From Gemmatimonadota bacterium (GTDB lineage: Bacteria; Gemmatimonadota; Gemmatimonadetes; Gemmatimonadales; Gemmatimonadaceae): a stretch of 64,000 nt of DNA. Location: NCBI GenBank assembly GCA_026387915.1, contig JAPLKS010000005.1, positions 62,001 through 126,000 on the forward strand, written 5' to 3'. How positions within the stretch are numbered: position 1 is the stretch's first letter; each line of letters opens with the position of its first letter. The position numbers and the translations under genes were made by a program. Below are positions 41,306 through 46,692 of the stretch, piece by piece. The notes beneath the pieces are model-generated. The model was not told the origin of the DNA, made no database searches, and saw nothing but the letters and a program-made list of their open reading frames with translations.

Positions 41306-41457
41306 AGGCAACAATCATAATGCGCGCACTCGCCTAGCCACCACCCAAGCGTCGGCCTATATTCGCCAATAGCGAGCGAAATGACCGTCTTTGCGCCGCG
41401 CCGATGCGCCGCGCCGTTGCGCCGCCCAGTCCGGCGCCCCTAGGGAGAGCAGGCACC

Positions 41458-42441
41458 GTGATTCCATGCGGGTTTTGTGGCCGAGAAAACGACGAGGCGT
41501 CGCGGTTTTGCATTGACTGCGGTAAGCCAATCGTCACGGGCGGCGCCCGCGTGATTTCGGTGGCCAGCCTTATGGAAAGCCGCCGGACTCCGCTCGCCGA
41601 ACCGGAGTCCACGGCCCGTATGCCGCGCGCCACAGGCACGCCCAAACCGCCTGTGGCGCAAAAGCAATGTCCGAGTTGCTCGGCCATGGTGGACCCCGAG
41701 TTTCCGTTCTGCCCACGCTGCGGTGCGCGCCTCGACGGCGCGGCCGCGCCAGCTCGTGCGAGCGGCACCGCCGCGTTCAGCGCCGCCGCCACCGGGGGCG
41801 GCGCCAAACTCAGCGTGCTCGGCGACAACGGAGAGGTGACGCAAACCATTACCCTCGCCACCGCCGACGCCACCTTGGGCCGCACCGAGGCTGACGTGCG
41901 CTTTGCCTCCGATGTGTTTCTCTCCCCGGTGCACGCGCAACTGTCGCTCCGTGCCGGTCAGCTCTTTCTGCGCGACCTCGGCTCACGCAACGGGACCTGG
42001 CTCTTTATTGACGGGCCCTATCGCCTGCAGGATGGCGACACGATTCTCGTGGGCTCGCAACTCCTGCGCTTTCGTCGGCTCGGCTACCCTGGCCCACATC
42101 CGGCAGAAGCCGACCGTACGCGGCGCCTCGGTTCGCTCACACCGAGTGCAGATGTGGCGGTGCTCGCACAGCTGCGCGCCGACGGCAGTGCGCGCGACAT
42201 TTGCCATCTCTCCCCCGGCCGCAGCGTGAAGATTGGCCGCGACGCGGGCGATTGGGTCTTTCCGTACGATCTGACCATGAGCGGCCAGCACGCCGAAGTG
42301 CGCAGTGAAGATCTCGAGTTCATTGTGCTCGACGACGGCAGTCGCAACGGCATTGCCGTGGCGGTGCGCGGCGAAAAAACACTGAAAGTAGGACAGCGCT
42401 TTTTGGTTGGCGACCAGACGATCCGGGTGGAGAGCCTCTGA
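41458..42441 (+). CDS. Zinc-ribbon protein with two FHA domains
   Basis: 327 residues from GTG 41458, which follows a purine-rich stretch (GGGAGAGCAGG) and starts the zinc-ribbon directly; ATG 41404 is a longer alternative. Two CxxC pairs form the first ribbon (CGFC and CIDC) and another two the second (CPSC and CPRC). Two FHA domains follow at about 115-205 and 225-325, each with the GR-, S- and N-type signature (LGRTEADV, SPVHAQL, DLGSRNGTW; IGRDAGDW, SGQHAEV, DDGSRNGIAV). FHA domains bind phosphothreonine peptides, so it is a likely target or adaptor for the Ser/Thr kinase 29 bp downstream. No membrane segment is present, so it is cytoplasmic. Confidence 0.9.
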   Translation: MIPCGFCGRENDEASRFCIDCGKPIVTGGARVISVASLMESRRTPLAEPESTARMPRATGTPKPPVAQKQCPSCSAMVDPEFPFCPRCGARLDGAAAPARASGTAAFSAAATGGGAKLSVLGDNGEVTQTITLATADATLGRTEADVRFASDVFLSPVHAQLSLRAGQLFLRDLGSRNGTWLFIDGPYRLQDGDTILVGSQLLRFRRLGYPGPHPAEADRTRRLGSLTPSADVAVLAQLRADGSARDICHLSPGRSVKIGRDAGDWVFPYDLTMSGQHAEVRSEDLEFIVLDDGSRNGIAVAVRGEKTLKVGQRFLVGDQTIRVESL

Positions 42442-42470: not shown

Positions 42471-44144
42471 GTGAGCGATCAGAAAATCTGCCCCACCTGC
42501 AGCACGGAGTATCCACTCTCCGAACGGTTCTGTCCCCGCGACGGCACCGCGCTGCGCTCCAGCAATCCGCTCGGCGATCTCCTTGGGACGGTGGTCGCTG
42601 AGCGGTATCACATCCTTCGCAAACTGGGCGAAGGTGGCATGGGCACGGTGTATCTCGCCGAGCATGTAAAGATGGGGCGTAAGGCCGCGCTCAAGGTGAT
42701 GAACCCCGGGATGAATCAGGATCCCGATGCAATTGCGCGTTTCAATCGCGAGGCCGCCAACGCGAGCCGGCTCAATCATCCCAACGTCTGCGGCATTTAT
42801 GACTTTGGCGAAACAGCCGACGGGCTGATTTACCTGGCGATGGAGTTCATTGAGGGCGAGTCGCTCACGAGTCTCATCGCAAAAACCGGATCACTCCCCG
42901 CGCCGCGCGCGGCGGCCATCATTCATCAGGCCGCCGATGCGCTCGCGGCAGCGCACGATCATGGCATTGTGCACCGCGACCTGAAGCCCGACAACATCAT
43001 GATCGCCAAGGGGCGCGAAGGCGCCGACGTGGTGAAGGTGGTGGACTTTGGCATTGCCAAGGCGAGCGCGAGCGATGCGCAGAAGGTGACGCGGACCGGA
43101 CTCGTAGTGGGGACGCCAGAGTATATGAGTCCGGAGCAGCTCGCCGGCGACACGCTCGACGGGCGGAGCGACATTTATTCGCTCGGGCTGGTGGCGTTCA
43201 ACTGTTTGACGGGGACGTTGCCTTTTCCAAGCAACTCGGCGCAGGAGGCGATGATCATGCGCCTCACCGACGAACCCAAGACGCTCACGGACATGAAGCC
43301 CGGTGTGGCGTGGCCCGCGGCACTGCAGACGGTGATGGACAAAGCGCTCGCGCGCGACGCCGTGGATCGGTATCAGCAGGCCGCCGAGTTTGGGCGTGAC
43401 ATTGTCAAAGCGGTATCGCAGATGCCGGGTACGCTCGCCGCGAGTGAGAGCACGCTAGTGATGGGGGCGGCTAAAACAGTTGCGGCGGCCACCGTGCCCA
43501 AGACGCGCGTGGCGCAACAGCCCGCCGGAGGTGCCAGTGACGCGGCCAGTGCGGCGCCCGCTCCGACGGCAACAAACACGAAGAGCCAACTGCCGCTGCT
43601 CGTTGGTGGCGGCGTGCTCGTGGCGGCGATTGCCGTGGCGGTGGTGATGATGCGTGGGCCCGCGTCGCCAGCGGCGAGTGGTGCGACCGAAACCAAGGCG
43701 AGCCCGGCACCGGTCAGTTCGGAGGCGGCGGTGCCGTCACAGGGGGCTCCCGCCCCAGCCGGCTCAGGCGCCAAACCGGCGGCAGGCGGCGCCCCAGGCA
43801 CGAGCCCGGCGCCGACGAATCCCGGCGCCACTGTGCCCCGTACGAATAGTGGGGCGTCGGCCGCGGCGGAACCGCAACAGCTGCTCGCTCGTTGGAGCAA
43901 GAGATTCGCGGAAGGGGGAAGTGCTGCTGAGGCCCGTGAAGCCCTCGACGACGTCTCGCGTGTGTTGCCGGCCGCCAATGGTTCAACCAAGGGGCTCGCG
44001 TATTGGGTACAGTCAATGGCATACGCGGTCCTCGAGGACAAACGCACCTGTCGCTCGGCGCAACAGGCCATCGCCAGCGGGCTCACGAACGACGACCTGC
44101 CCGCCGCGAAGTCTGTGGTGGCGAGTGATCTCTGCAAACCGTAG
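42471..44144 (+). CDS. Transmembrane Ser/Thr protein kinase with N-terminal zinc ribbon
   Basis: 557 residues from GTG. A short zinc ribbon (CPTC...FCPRDG) precedes the kinase domain. Kinase marks are LGEGGMGTVYLAEH, AALKVM (Lys), HRDLKPDN with catalytic Asp 170, VDFGIAKAS and TPEYMSPEQL. A Pro/Ala-rich linker follows, then one membrane helix near 365-390 (LLVGGGVLVAAIAVAVVMM), a low-complexity stretch and a small C-terminal helical domain with two cysteines outside the cytoplasm. It is a Hanks-type kinase that probably phosphorylates the FHA partners and is opposed by the PP2C phosphatase 120 bp downstream. Confidence 0.93.
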   Translation: MSDQKICPTCSTEYPLSERFCPRDGTALRSSNPLGDLLGTVVAERYHILRKLGEGGMGTVYLAEHVKMGRKAALKVMNPGMNQDPDAIARFNREAANASRLNHPNVCGIYDFGETADGLIYLAMEFIEGESLTSLIAKTGSLPAPRAAAIIHQAADALAAAHDHGIVHRDLKPDNIMIAKGREGADVVKVVDFGIAKASASDAQKVTRTGLVVGTPEYMSPEQLAGDTLDGRSDIYSLGLVAFNCLTGTLPFPSNSAQEAMIMRLTDEPKTLTDMKPGVAWPAALQTVMDKALARDAVDRYQQAAEFGRDIVKAVSQMPGTLAASESTLVMGAAKTVAAATVPKTRVAQQPAGGASDAASAAPAPTATNTKSQLPLLVGGGVLVAAIAVAVVMMRGPASPAASGATETKASPAPVSSEAAVPSQGAPAPAGSGAKPAAGGAPGTSPAPTNPGATVPRTNSGASAAAEPQQLLARWSKRFAEGGSAAEAREALDDVSRVLPAANGSTKGLAYWVQSMAYAVLEDKRTCRSAQQAIASGLTNDDLPAAKSVVASDLCKP

Positions 44145-44264: not shown

Positions 44265-45356
44265 GTGACCTCAAACCACACGCCGCTCTCCAGCGCAGTT
44301 ACCGTCCACGTCTTTGGCCGCACCGACGTGGGGCGGACGCGCGAGCACAACGAAGACGCGTTTGTGGTGTGCGACCTCGAAACGGGGAACGCCACACTGC
44401 AGCCCGAAGTGCGGACGCACGTTCAGGGCGCGCGCGGCACGCTGTTTATGGTCGCAGACGGCATGGGTGGTGCGGCGGCGGGTGAACTGGCCAGCGCCAT
44501 GGCAACGGACGTCGTGCTCTCGGAACTGGACGCGCGCTGGCGCCGTGCGGCGGGGACCAGCGCCGAGACCTTTGTGATTGCACTCAAGGCTGCCACGGAG
44601 GCGGCCAACGCGCGGATTCATCGATTTGCGATTGAGCATCCCGAAAATCGCGGCATGGGGACCACGGCCACGATCGCCGGTCTGCTCGGTGATCAGTTGT
44701 ATCTGGCGCAGGTGGGCGACAGCCGCGCGTATCTCGTGCGCGACGGCGTGGCGGTGCAGATCACCAAGGATCAGTCGCTGATGCAAAAGCTCATCGAGGC
44801 CGGTGAGCTGACCGAAGAAGAGGCCGAAGTGAGCGAACGCCGCAATATCATTTTGCAGGCGATTGGTCCGGAGCCCACCGTGAAGGTGGATCTCACGCAG
44901 CAGCAGCTGCGCCGCGGCGACGTGCTCCTGTTGTGCAGTGACGGACTGAGCGGCCAGATGCACGCCACCGACATCGCCACGATTGCCACGGACTCCACCG
45001 ATCTCGTGCAACTGTGCAAGCGCCTGATTGATTTGGCCAACGAGAATGGTGGCCCGGACAATATCACGGTGATCGCCGCGCGCGCTGATGGCGCCACGCT
45101 CCTCGCGCCGGCCGCTGGCGATACGATTGGCTATCGCCCGTATGTCAGCGAATCGGAGATGCGCCCCACGGTGCGCGTGAGCGCGGATGACATTACGGCG
45201 CTCGCCGATGACGCCGACCTCAACGAGCACGCCTCTGGCAGCGCTGTTTCCGGCGAACTACGCCCGACGCGCCCGACGCGCCCGACGCGCCCGACGCGCC
45301 CGACGCGCCCGACGCTCGCGTCTCGCGCGAAACGTGGCGCATCATCTTTGGCCTGA
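44265..45356 (+). CDS. PP2C-type Ser/Thr phosphatase, apparently frameshifted near its C-terminus
   Basis: 363 residues in this frame. PP2C metal-binding marks are present and complete: TDVGRTREHNEDAF, MVADGMGGAAAGE, GTTATIAGLL, QVGDSRAYL, SDGLSG and GGPDNITVI. It should dephosphorylate targets of the adjacent kinase. After about residue 328 the frame enters a 9-bp tandem repeat, reads RPT six times and ends in a basic tail without a membrane helix. In the other forward frame the repeat reads DAP and runs into TWRIIFGLIALGVIAWQLYRYLR and a TAATG joined to the next gene, which is the membrane-anchored end expected here. So a frameshift just before or within the repeat is likely, real or from sequencing. 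Confidence 0.88.
   Translation: MTSNHTPLSSAVTVHVFGRTDVGRTREHNEDAFVVCDLETGNATLQPEVRTHVQGARGTLFMVADGMGGAAAGELASAMATDVVLSELDARWRRAAGTSAETFVIALKAATEAANARIHRFAIEHPENRGMGTTATIAGLLGDQLYLAQVGDSRAYLVRDGVAVQITKDQSLMQKLIEAGELTEEEAEVSERRNIILQAIGPEPTVKVDLTQQQLRRGDVLLLCSDGLSGQMHATDIATIATDSTDLVQLCKRLIDLANENGGPDNITVIAARADGATLLAPAAGDTIGYRPYVSESEMRPTVRVSADDITALADDADLNEHASGSAVSGELRPTRPTRPTRPTRPTRPTLASRAKRGASSLA
45261..45314. repeat. Six perfect 9-bp tandem repeats
   Basis: CGCCCGACG occurs six times without mismatch in the 3' end of the PP2C gene. In the current frame it codes RPT; in the frame that leads to the membrane helix it codes DAP. The unit length is a multiple of three, so copy-number change alone would not change frame. 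Confidence 0.95.
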
Positions 45357-45403
45357 TTGCCTTGGGCGTTATTGCCTGGCAGTTGTACCGCTACCTCCGG
45401 TAA
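45308..45403 (+). pseudogene. Detached membrane-anchor segment of the PP2C gene in another frame
   Basis: This frame reads DARVSRETW, then a hydrophobic helix IIFGLIALGVIAW and QLYRYLR before TAA at 45401-45403. The TAA overlaps the ATG of the next gene as TAATG, the coupling used twice elsewhere in the window (3904-3908 and 47347-47351). It has no start of its own and fits as the displaced C-terminus of the phosphatase. Confidence 0.65.
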
Positions 45404-46692
45404 TGCCGATCGAACTCCGCATCACCAGCGGCTCGCGCGCTGGGCAGCGGGACACGCTCGACCAACCGGTGGTCACTGTTGGACGCCACCCGTCATGCGA
45501 CGTGCGCTTTCATGCGGAGCACGATGCCGACGTCTCTGCGCGCCACGCGGAATTGCGCACCGCCGACGGCGGCGTGACGCTACACGATCTGGCGAGCACC
45601 AACGGCACGCTCGTGAACGGTGCGCGCATCAGTGCCCCGCAGCTGCTCCGCGACGGCGACGTGATTGGCTTTGGCGCCCAGGGGCCCACGGTGGAGTTTC
45701 GCACCGTGTCCAGCGGAACGCCGCCGCGCCGAAACACGATGGAGCTGGTGGCCGAAGCGGTGCATCTACAAACGCGAACGCTGCGTCACGCGGTGGTGGC
45801 GCTCGGTGTGCTCGTTGTGGTGATTGGCGGCACGGTGGGATGGCGGAGTTATCAGGATCGCCGGTTGTCGACTCTGCGTGTGGACATGTTGCTCAAGAAC
45901 ATGTCCGACGCACGGCGCAGTAGCGACAGCCTCAGCGCCGTGCAGATGGCCGCGCTCAAGGCGCAGATGGCGCAAGGTGGTGGCGGCAGCACAAGTGCCG
46001 CAGCGGAGAGTCTCCACGCACTCGAAGATCGGCAGCGCGCGGTCGCGGCGCTCTCGGACGCGGACGTGGCGTCGACGGTGCGTCGCAACATGGCGGCGGT
46101 GGTGTTCGTGGCCGTCAAGTTTGCGAACGGCGACATGGTCAGCGGCTCGGGGTTCAATGTCGCACGAAACGGACTAGTGGTCACCAATCGCCACGTGGTG
46201 GTGGATGACCAAGGCGTGACCGCGCCGCAGGTGCAGGTGATCTTCAATGGCACGGTGGGGCAGTGGCGACGTGCGCACGTGCTCAAGGTGAGCGCGACCG
46301 ACGAACTCGCTTGGCTCCAGATTGACGAAGGGGGCAGCTACCCTGTGGTGGGCTCTCTTTCGACAGCACCAACACCACCGGTGGGCACGGCACTCACGAT
46401 CCTCGGGTATCCACTCGGCACGGAGACCGCTGGCATGGGTGGCGACATCAACAGACTGCACCCGCGCACGTCCTTGGGTGTGGCGATTGTGTCGAAAGCG
46501 TTGACCGACACGCTTCAACTCGACGGCTGGGCCGCAGAAGGGTCGAGCGGAAGCCCGGTGTTCAACGCCAAGGGCGCGGTGGTGGGTGTGGTGTTCGGTG
46601 GACCGCGCGAGGCGAATGGCCGAATTGTGTACGCTGTGCCATCGGCGCGGGTCGTGCAGCAGATGCCGCCGGACGTCAATCGCCCGAAGTAA
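45403..46692 (+). CDS. FHA-transmembrane-trypsin-like protease
   Basis: 429 residues; the ATG at 45403 is in the TAATG overlap and starts an FHA domain directly (VGRHPSCDVRF, SARHAEL, DLASTNGTLVNG). A membrane helix follows near 125-145 (VALGVLVVVIGGTVGW), then a short coiled linker and a trypsin-like serine protease domain. The catalytic triad appears as His 264 (NRHVVV), Asp 300 (DELAWLQ) and Ser 382 (GSSGSPVF). The FHA would face the cytoplasm and the protease the periplasm, so phosphorylation by the upstream kinase could be read across the membrane. No PDZ domain is seen. It is the last gene of the kinase/phosphatase operon. Confidence 0.9.
   Translation: MPIELRITSGSRAGQRDTLDQPVVTVGRHPSCDVRFHAEHDADVSARHAELRTADGGVTLHDLASTNGTLVNGARISAPQLLRDGDVIGFGAQGPTVEFRTVSSGTPPRRNTMELVAEAVHLQTRTLRHAVVALGVLVVVIGGTVGWRSYQDRRLSTLRVDMLLKNMSDARRSSDSLSAVQMAALKAQMAQGGGGSTSAAAESLHALEDRQRAVAALSDADVASTVRRNMAAVVFVAVKFANGDMVSGSGFNVARNGLVVTNRHVVVDDQGVTAPQVQVIFNGTVGQWRRAHVLKVSATDELAWLQIDEGGSYPVVGSLSTAPTPPVGTALTILGYPLGTETAGMGGDINRLHPRTSLGVAIVSKALTDTLQLDGWAAEGSSGSPVFNAKGAVVGVVFGGPREANGRIVYAVPSARVVQQMPPDVNRPK

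Follow-up and report, generated by a model that had tools for sequence, protein, structure and literature searches.

The PP2C-type Ser/Thr phosphatase described here has no C-terminal membrane helix in its present reading frame; the helix lies in the other forward frame, which comparison with orthologues shows to be the ancestral end of the protein, displaced by a net frame change beside a 9-bp tandem array. We favour the interpretation that the break is a recent, lineage-specific frameshift mutation, and give this a probability of roughly one half. The phosphatase belongs to a module of four plus-strand genes, encoding in order a zinc-ribbon/FHA protein, a Hanks-type kinase, the PP2C phosphatase and an FHA/trypsin-like protease, and the same gene order is seen in many relatives. 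The window, that is the whole stretch of 64,000 nucleotides analysed, lies on contig C5 of the source genome (G000; 3.58 Mb in 23 contigs), whose closest relatives are Gemmatimonadaceae. The features that the argument uses are as follows.

41404–42441, + strand: opens the module; encodes a double zinc ribbon–FHA protein (Pfam FHA 5e-19, DZR 2e-11)
42471–44144, + strand: Hanks-type Ser/Thr kinase, the partner upstream of PP2C (Pfam Pkinase 4e-50)
44265–45356, + strand: PP2C-type Ser/Thr phosphatase in its present frame, 363 aa (Pfam PP2C PF00481 4e-13, PP2C_2 5e-12; translation)
45212–45316, + strand: interval of the frame break, simplest site 45258–45262 at the array's 5' edge (last anchor-frame stop, codon comparison with G007, GC phase flip)
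45261–45315, + strand: 9-bp tandem array of 6.1 CGCCCGACG copies, translated as RPT by the PP2C frame and as DAP by the anchor frame (TRF, 100% matches)
45317–45403, + strand: displaced ancestral C-terminus RVSRETWRIIFGLIALGVIAWQLYRYLR and stop, with the membrane helix (identity to the in-frame G007/L004 tail; synonymous-biased substitutions)
45403–46692, + strand: FHA–membrane segment–trypsin-like protease gene (Pfam FHA 2e-19, Trypsin_2 2e-19; same order in relatives)

Two reading frames through one array

The PP2C domain scores above the Pfam gathering cut-offs (PF00481, 50 bits against 20.3; PF13672, 46 bits against 24), and the metal-binding motifs NEDA, DGMGG, GDSR, SDG and GGPDN are present in the 44265–45356 translation, as read by eye without a motif tool. 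Judged from this translation, the catalytic domain is intact and the tail alone has been lost.

The sequence-only reading had placed the anomaly at 45150–45410, and both this range and its description of the two frames hold. The annotated PP2C frame ends in RPT repeats followed by basic residues (SGEL(RPT)6LASRAKRGASSLA, i.e. LASRAKRGASSLA), with its TGA at 45354–45356. The other forward frame, which we call the anchor frame, ends in TPDAPDAPDAPDAPDAPDARVSRETWRIIFGLIALGVIAWQLYRYLR; it reads DAP repeats, then RVSRETWRIIFGLIALGVIAWQLYRYLR with the membrane helix, and its TAA at 45401–45403 overlaps the ATG of the FHA–trypsin gene at 45403 (TAATG). No internal stop or other damage is found in the displaced frame. 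The array that both frames cross is a pure 55 bp and holds no homopolymer of more than three bases. Six copies of the same unit form an array at an unrelated place in a congener (L130, 1501–1553; G005:C64), where one frame of the minus strand is free of stops, with GAS repeats as its translation.

Orthologues and the native C-terminus

The closest relative, G007 (L004; same contig as L033, CANIWQ010000063), shares 90% protein identity with G000 over the catalytic part and encodes its phosphatase in a single ORF, which ends in ADPADPADPADP(A)nELTVDATPAPPRVSRETWRIIFGAIALGVIAWQLYRYLK and a stop. The ADP linker of this ORF corresponds to the DAP reading of the G000 array, and the G000 anchor residues RVSRETW...YLR are identical at 26/28 positions to this in-frame C-terminus. 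Eight codons differ between the two genomes over the anchor stretch, six of them synonymously, in the anchor frame only; when the same changes were shuffled, as few amino-acid changes arose in 0.09% of trials (p = 0.0009). The TGA that closes the RPT frame is not present in G007. Codon-position GC fits the PP2C frame across 45144–45260 and the anchor frame across 45316–45400, its phase flipping across the array.

A wider comparison drew on 90 distinct complete orthologue tails, with that of G000 among them. A hydrophobic C-terminal helix in frame is found in 83 of the 89 others, and the stop overlaps the following start codon in 45 of the 90. None of these tails except that of G000 ends in RPT, and no relative has a frame break at the PP2C/anchor junction, each having one open frame. 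Because the helix is in frame in so many tails, none of the others has the RPT ending and G007 has one ORF, the anchor frame is the ancestral C-terminus of the phosphatase. The earlier proposal that this frame is the natural end of the protein is thus borne out by the in-frame helices and the stop/start overlaps, and it withstands the comparison of homologous C-termini.

Could the soluble, RPT-tailed form instead be native, and the anchor-like frame a chance ORF? A more distant clade does include five orthologues with short, helix-less tails. Nevertheless, a chance ORF would hardly be so nearly identical to the real C-terminus of a relative or show such a synonymous bias, and with the RPT ending in no orthologue the homologues already refute this reading, which we regard as highly improbable.

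The exceptions to the in-frame helix, besides G000, are L045 and the five orthologues of that clade (L029, L031, L032, L097 and L102). Three of the five terminate in basic and aromatic residues resembling KKK(W/L)W(P/Q)F, which could replace the helix in membrane binding. In L045 an in-frame TAG in the linker, at about 3958, is followed by an intact membrane helix in the same frame, representing either an error or an independent event that parted the phosphatase from its anchor. These five helix-less orthologues, with the L045 stop ahead of the helix, show that the anchor can be lost in other genomes, in line with a real mutation in G000.

Mycobacterium PstP, a membrane-anchored bacterial PP2C (PMC12088040), is among the closest known systems. 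Its gene, too, has Ser/Thr kinase and FHA genes as neighbours, and its N-terminal PP2C domain is likewise followed by a linker and then a membrane helix. PstP has an extracytoplasmic part. In the G000 family, in contrast, the helix is followed by no more than a short basic stretch, and G000 itself has the helix out of frame. A search of the literature on Gemmatimonadetes PP2C found nothing relevant.

Position and nature of the break

The last stop in the anchor frame is at 45209. Since this frame is open only beyond that point and both frames cross the array, the break must lie in the interval 45212–45316. Comparing codons with G007 gives 45258–45262, the array's 5' edge, as its simplest site. 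The net change amounts to a one-base loss or, equivalently, a two-base gain. Gain or loss of a 9-bp unit keeps the frame, so a change in copy number can neither cause nor reverse the break. The earlier interpretation survives in part: its single indel near the repeat fits, as one net indel beside the array, whereas the accompanying idea of switching between an anchored and a free enzyme is not supported, because 9-bp units keep the frame and no relative shows the break.

Slippage in the repeat as a phase-variable switch between the two forms might be suspected from a pure, presumably unstable tandem array lying right at the frame junction. However, besides the frame-preserving size of the unit, the overlap of the two frames shows neither a tetranucleotide tract nor a mono- or dinucleotide tract of any length, and we find such a switch scarcely credible. 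Phase variation by slipped-strand mispairing was rejected, as the 9-bp unit leaves the frame unchanged.

Possible ribosomal frameshifting

A ribosome in the PP2C frame would have to shift by −1 to reach the anchor. Programmed −1 frameshifting in the array, yielding a minority of anchored phosphatase, fits this direction; the overlap (45150–45356) holds six C_CCG tetramers in the PP2C frame, one per array unit, as well as single C_CCC and T_TTG tetramers. Tetramers of the Z_ZZN type are among the motifs recognised for −1 shifting (PMC4066793). However, the same overlap contains no canonical X_XXY_YYZ heptamer, and C_CCG is a poor motif even when assisted: with a strong pseudoknot in E. coli it gave 1.8–3.6-fold over a background of ~0.06%, and was barely or not shifty (PMC4066793). 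RNA folding, calculated without pseudoknots, shows nothing unusual at 45240–45360 (z-score −0.22) and revealed no stimulator. Finally, a survey used conserved frame transitions to recognise recoding candidates (PMC3711429), and the relatives, with their one open frame, have no such transition. By our estimate, the combined effect of six consecutive C_CCG tetramers would not exceed about 1% frameshifting. Programmed frameshifting is accordingly an unlikely explanation, and the earlier suggestion that ribosomes shift frame here is not supported. Still less probable is the more particular idea that the DAP/RPT minisatellite is a dispersed, low-efficiency −1 element whose copy number sets the fraction of anchored versus soluble PP2C. 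We find no support for either a programmed or a phase-variable switch.

Mutation or sequence error

The break resembles those of fs-genes, lineage-specific frameshifted genes of a pseudogene class (PMC3711429), in that relatives have one open frame, a net indel splits it in a single genome and the frame transition is not conserved. Unlike them, G000 PP2C loses only its tail; its catalytic domain being intact, it need not be a pseudogene.

The kinase, FHA and FHA–trypsin genes of the module are all intact in G000. Because these genes and the displaced anchor are undamaged, a mutation must be very young. The same two observations are equally expected from a base-calling or assembly error, and a local error at the G+C-rich array, with the organism itself keeping an intact anchored phosphatase, is the main alternative, to which we give rather less than even odds. 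It would account for a break seen in one genome only, for a displaced frame perfectly preserved down to its TAATG coupling, for the intact neighbouring genes and for a break site adjoining the pure 55-bp array. On the other hand, the array would fit within a normal read and its homopolymers do not exceed three bases, and collapse of the array would alter its length by 9.

Frame breaks in G000 are, moreover, no commoner than in its relative. In about 2.4 Mb of stretches from G000 and G007, of which about 360 kb aligned, five of 248 G007 ORFs are broken in G000, the PP2C one included, and seven of 246 G000 ORFs are broken in G007, counts in which some ORFs are mechanical ORFs or 5' extensions. 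G000 is thus not generally indel-prone, and the PP2C break falls within an ordinary background of frame differences. On balance, mutation is favoured somewhat over error. A search of the genus for a second strain of the species yielded only other species, the closest at 85% at the DNA level; viral contigs, scanned with a DNA pattern that covers the anchor, gave no match. A second one-base frame difference between G000 and G007, also with a flip in codon-position GC phase, occurs at L182 7751 (G000:C18, about 167751); a Pfam search with the gene concerned (L182/L185) returned no family.

Expected consequences for the module

If the frameshift mutation that we favour is real, the indel (one base lost or two gained, net, where the DAP-coding array begins), recent and specific to this lineage, has detached an ancestrally C-terminally anchored PP2C from its only membrane helix. 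The product would keep its catalytic domain whole and end in a meaningless (RPT)6-basic tail, and the phosphatase would be expected to be soluble. The PP2C stop would now lie about 47 bases 5' of the FHA–trypsin start, with the overlap gone and translational coupling probably weakened. That start lacks a clear purine-rich sequence for ribosome binding immediately ahead of it; with the stop moved as well, coupled translation of the FHA–trypsin gene may be expected to fall.

One species of the genus would then have a soluble form of an otherwise anchored phosphatase, offering a natural test of the role of the anchor in an FHA–kinase–PP2C–FHA/protease module. The C-terminus of the PP2C frame differs from the true C-terminus of the family and should be flagged. 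The broader lesson is an ordinary one, a lineage-specific frame break at the edge of a repeat and no switch.

Neither G007 nor G008 has an intact kinase, and in both the FHA–trypsin gene is reduced to a stub. Since these two genomes lack the kinase and G012 and G016 give only weak, paralogue-level matches, the module appears to be dispensable in the genus, although misassembly of the MAGs may instead account for the losses in G007 and G008. In G007 (L144, 1–2910; G007:C63) a truncated kinase gene adjoins a 13-bp tandem array, whose equivalent in the window lies near 41392–41425, and the FHA–trypsin gene stops short after about 25 codons, at its junction with the nagZ-like gene. G008 (L037) has no kinase and a 99-residue FHA stub. 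Both genomes keep PP2C and its anchor.
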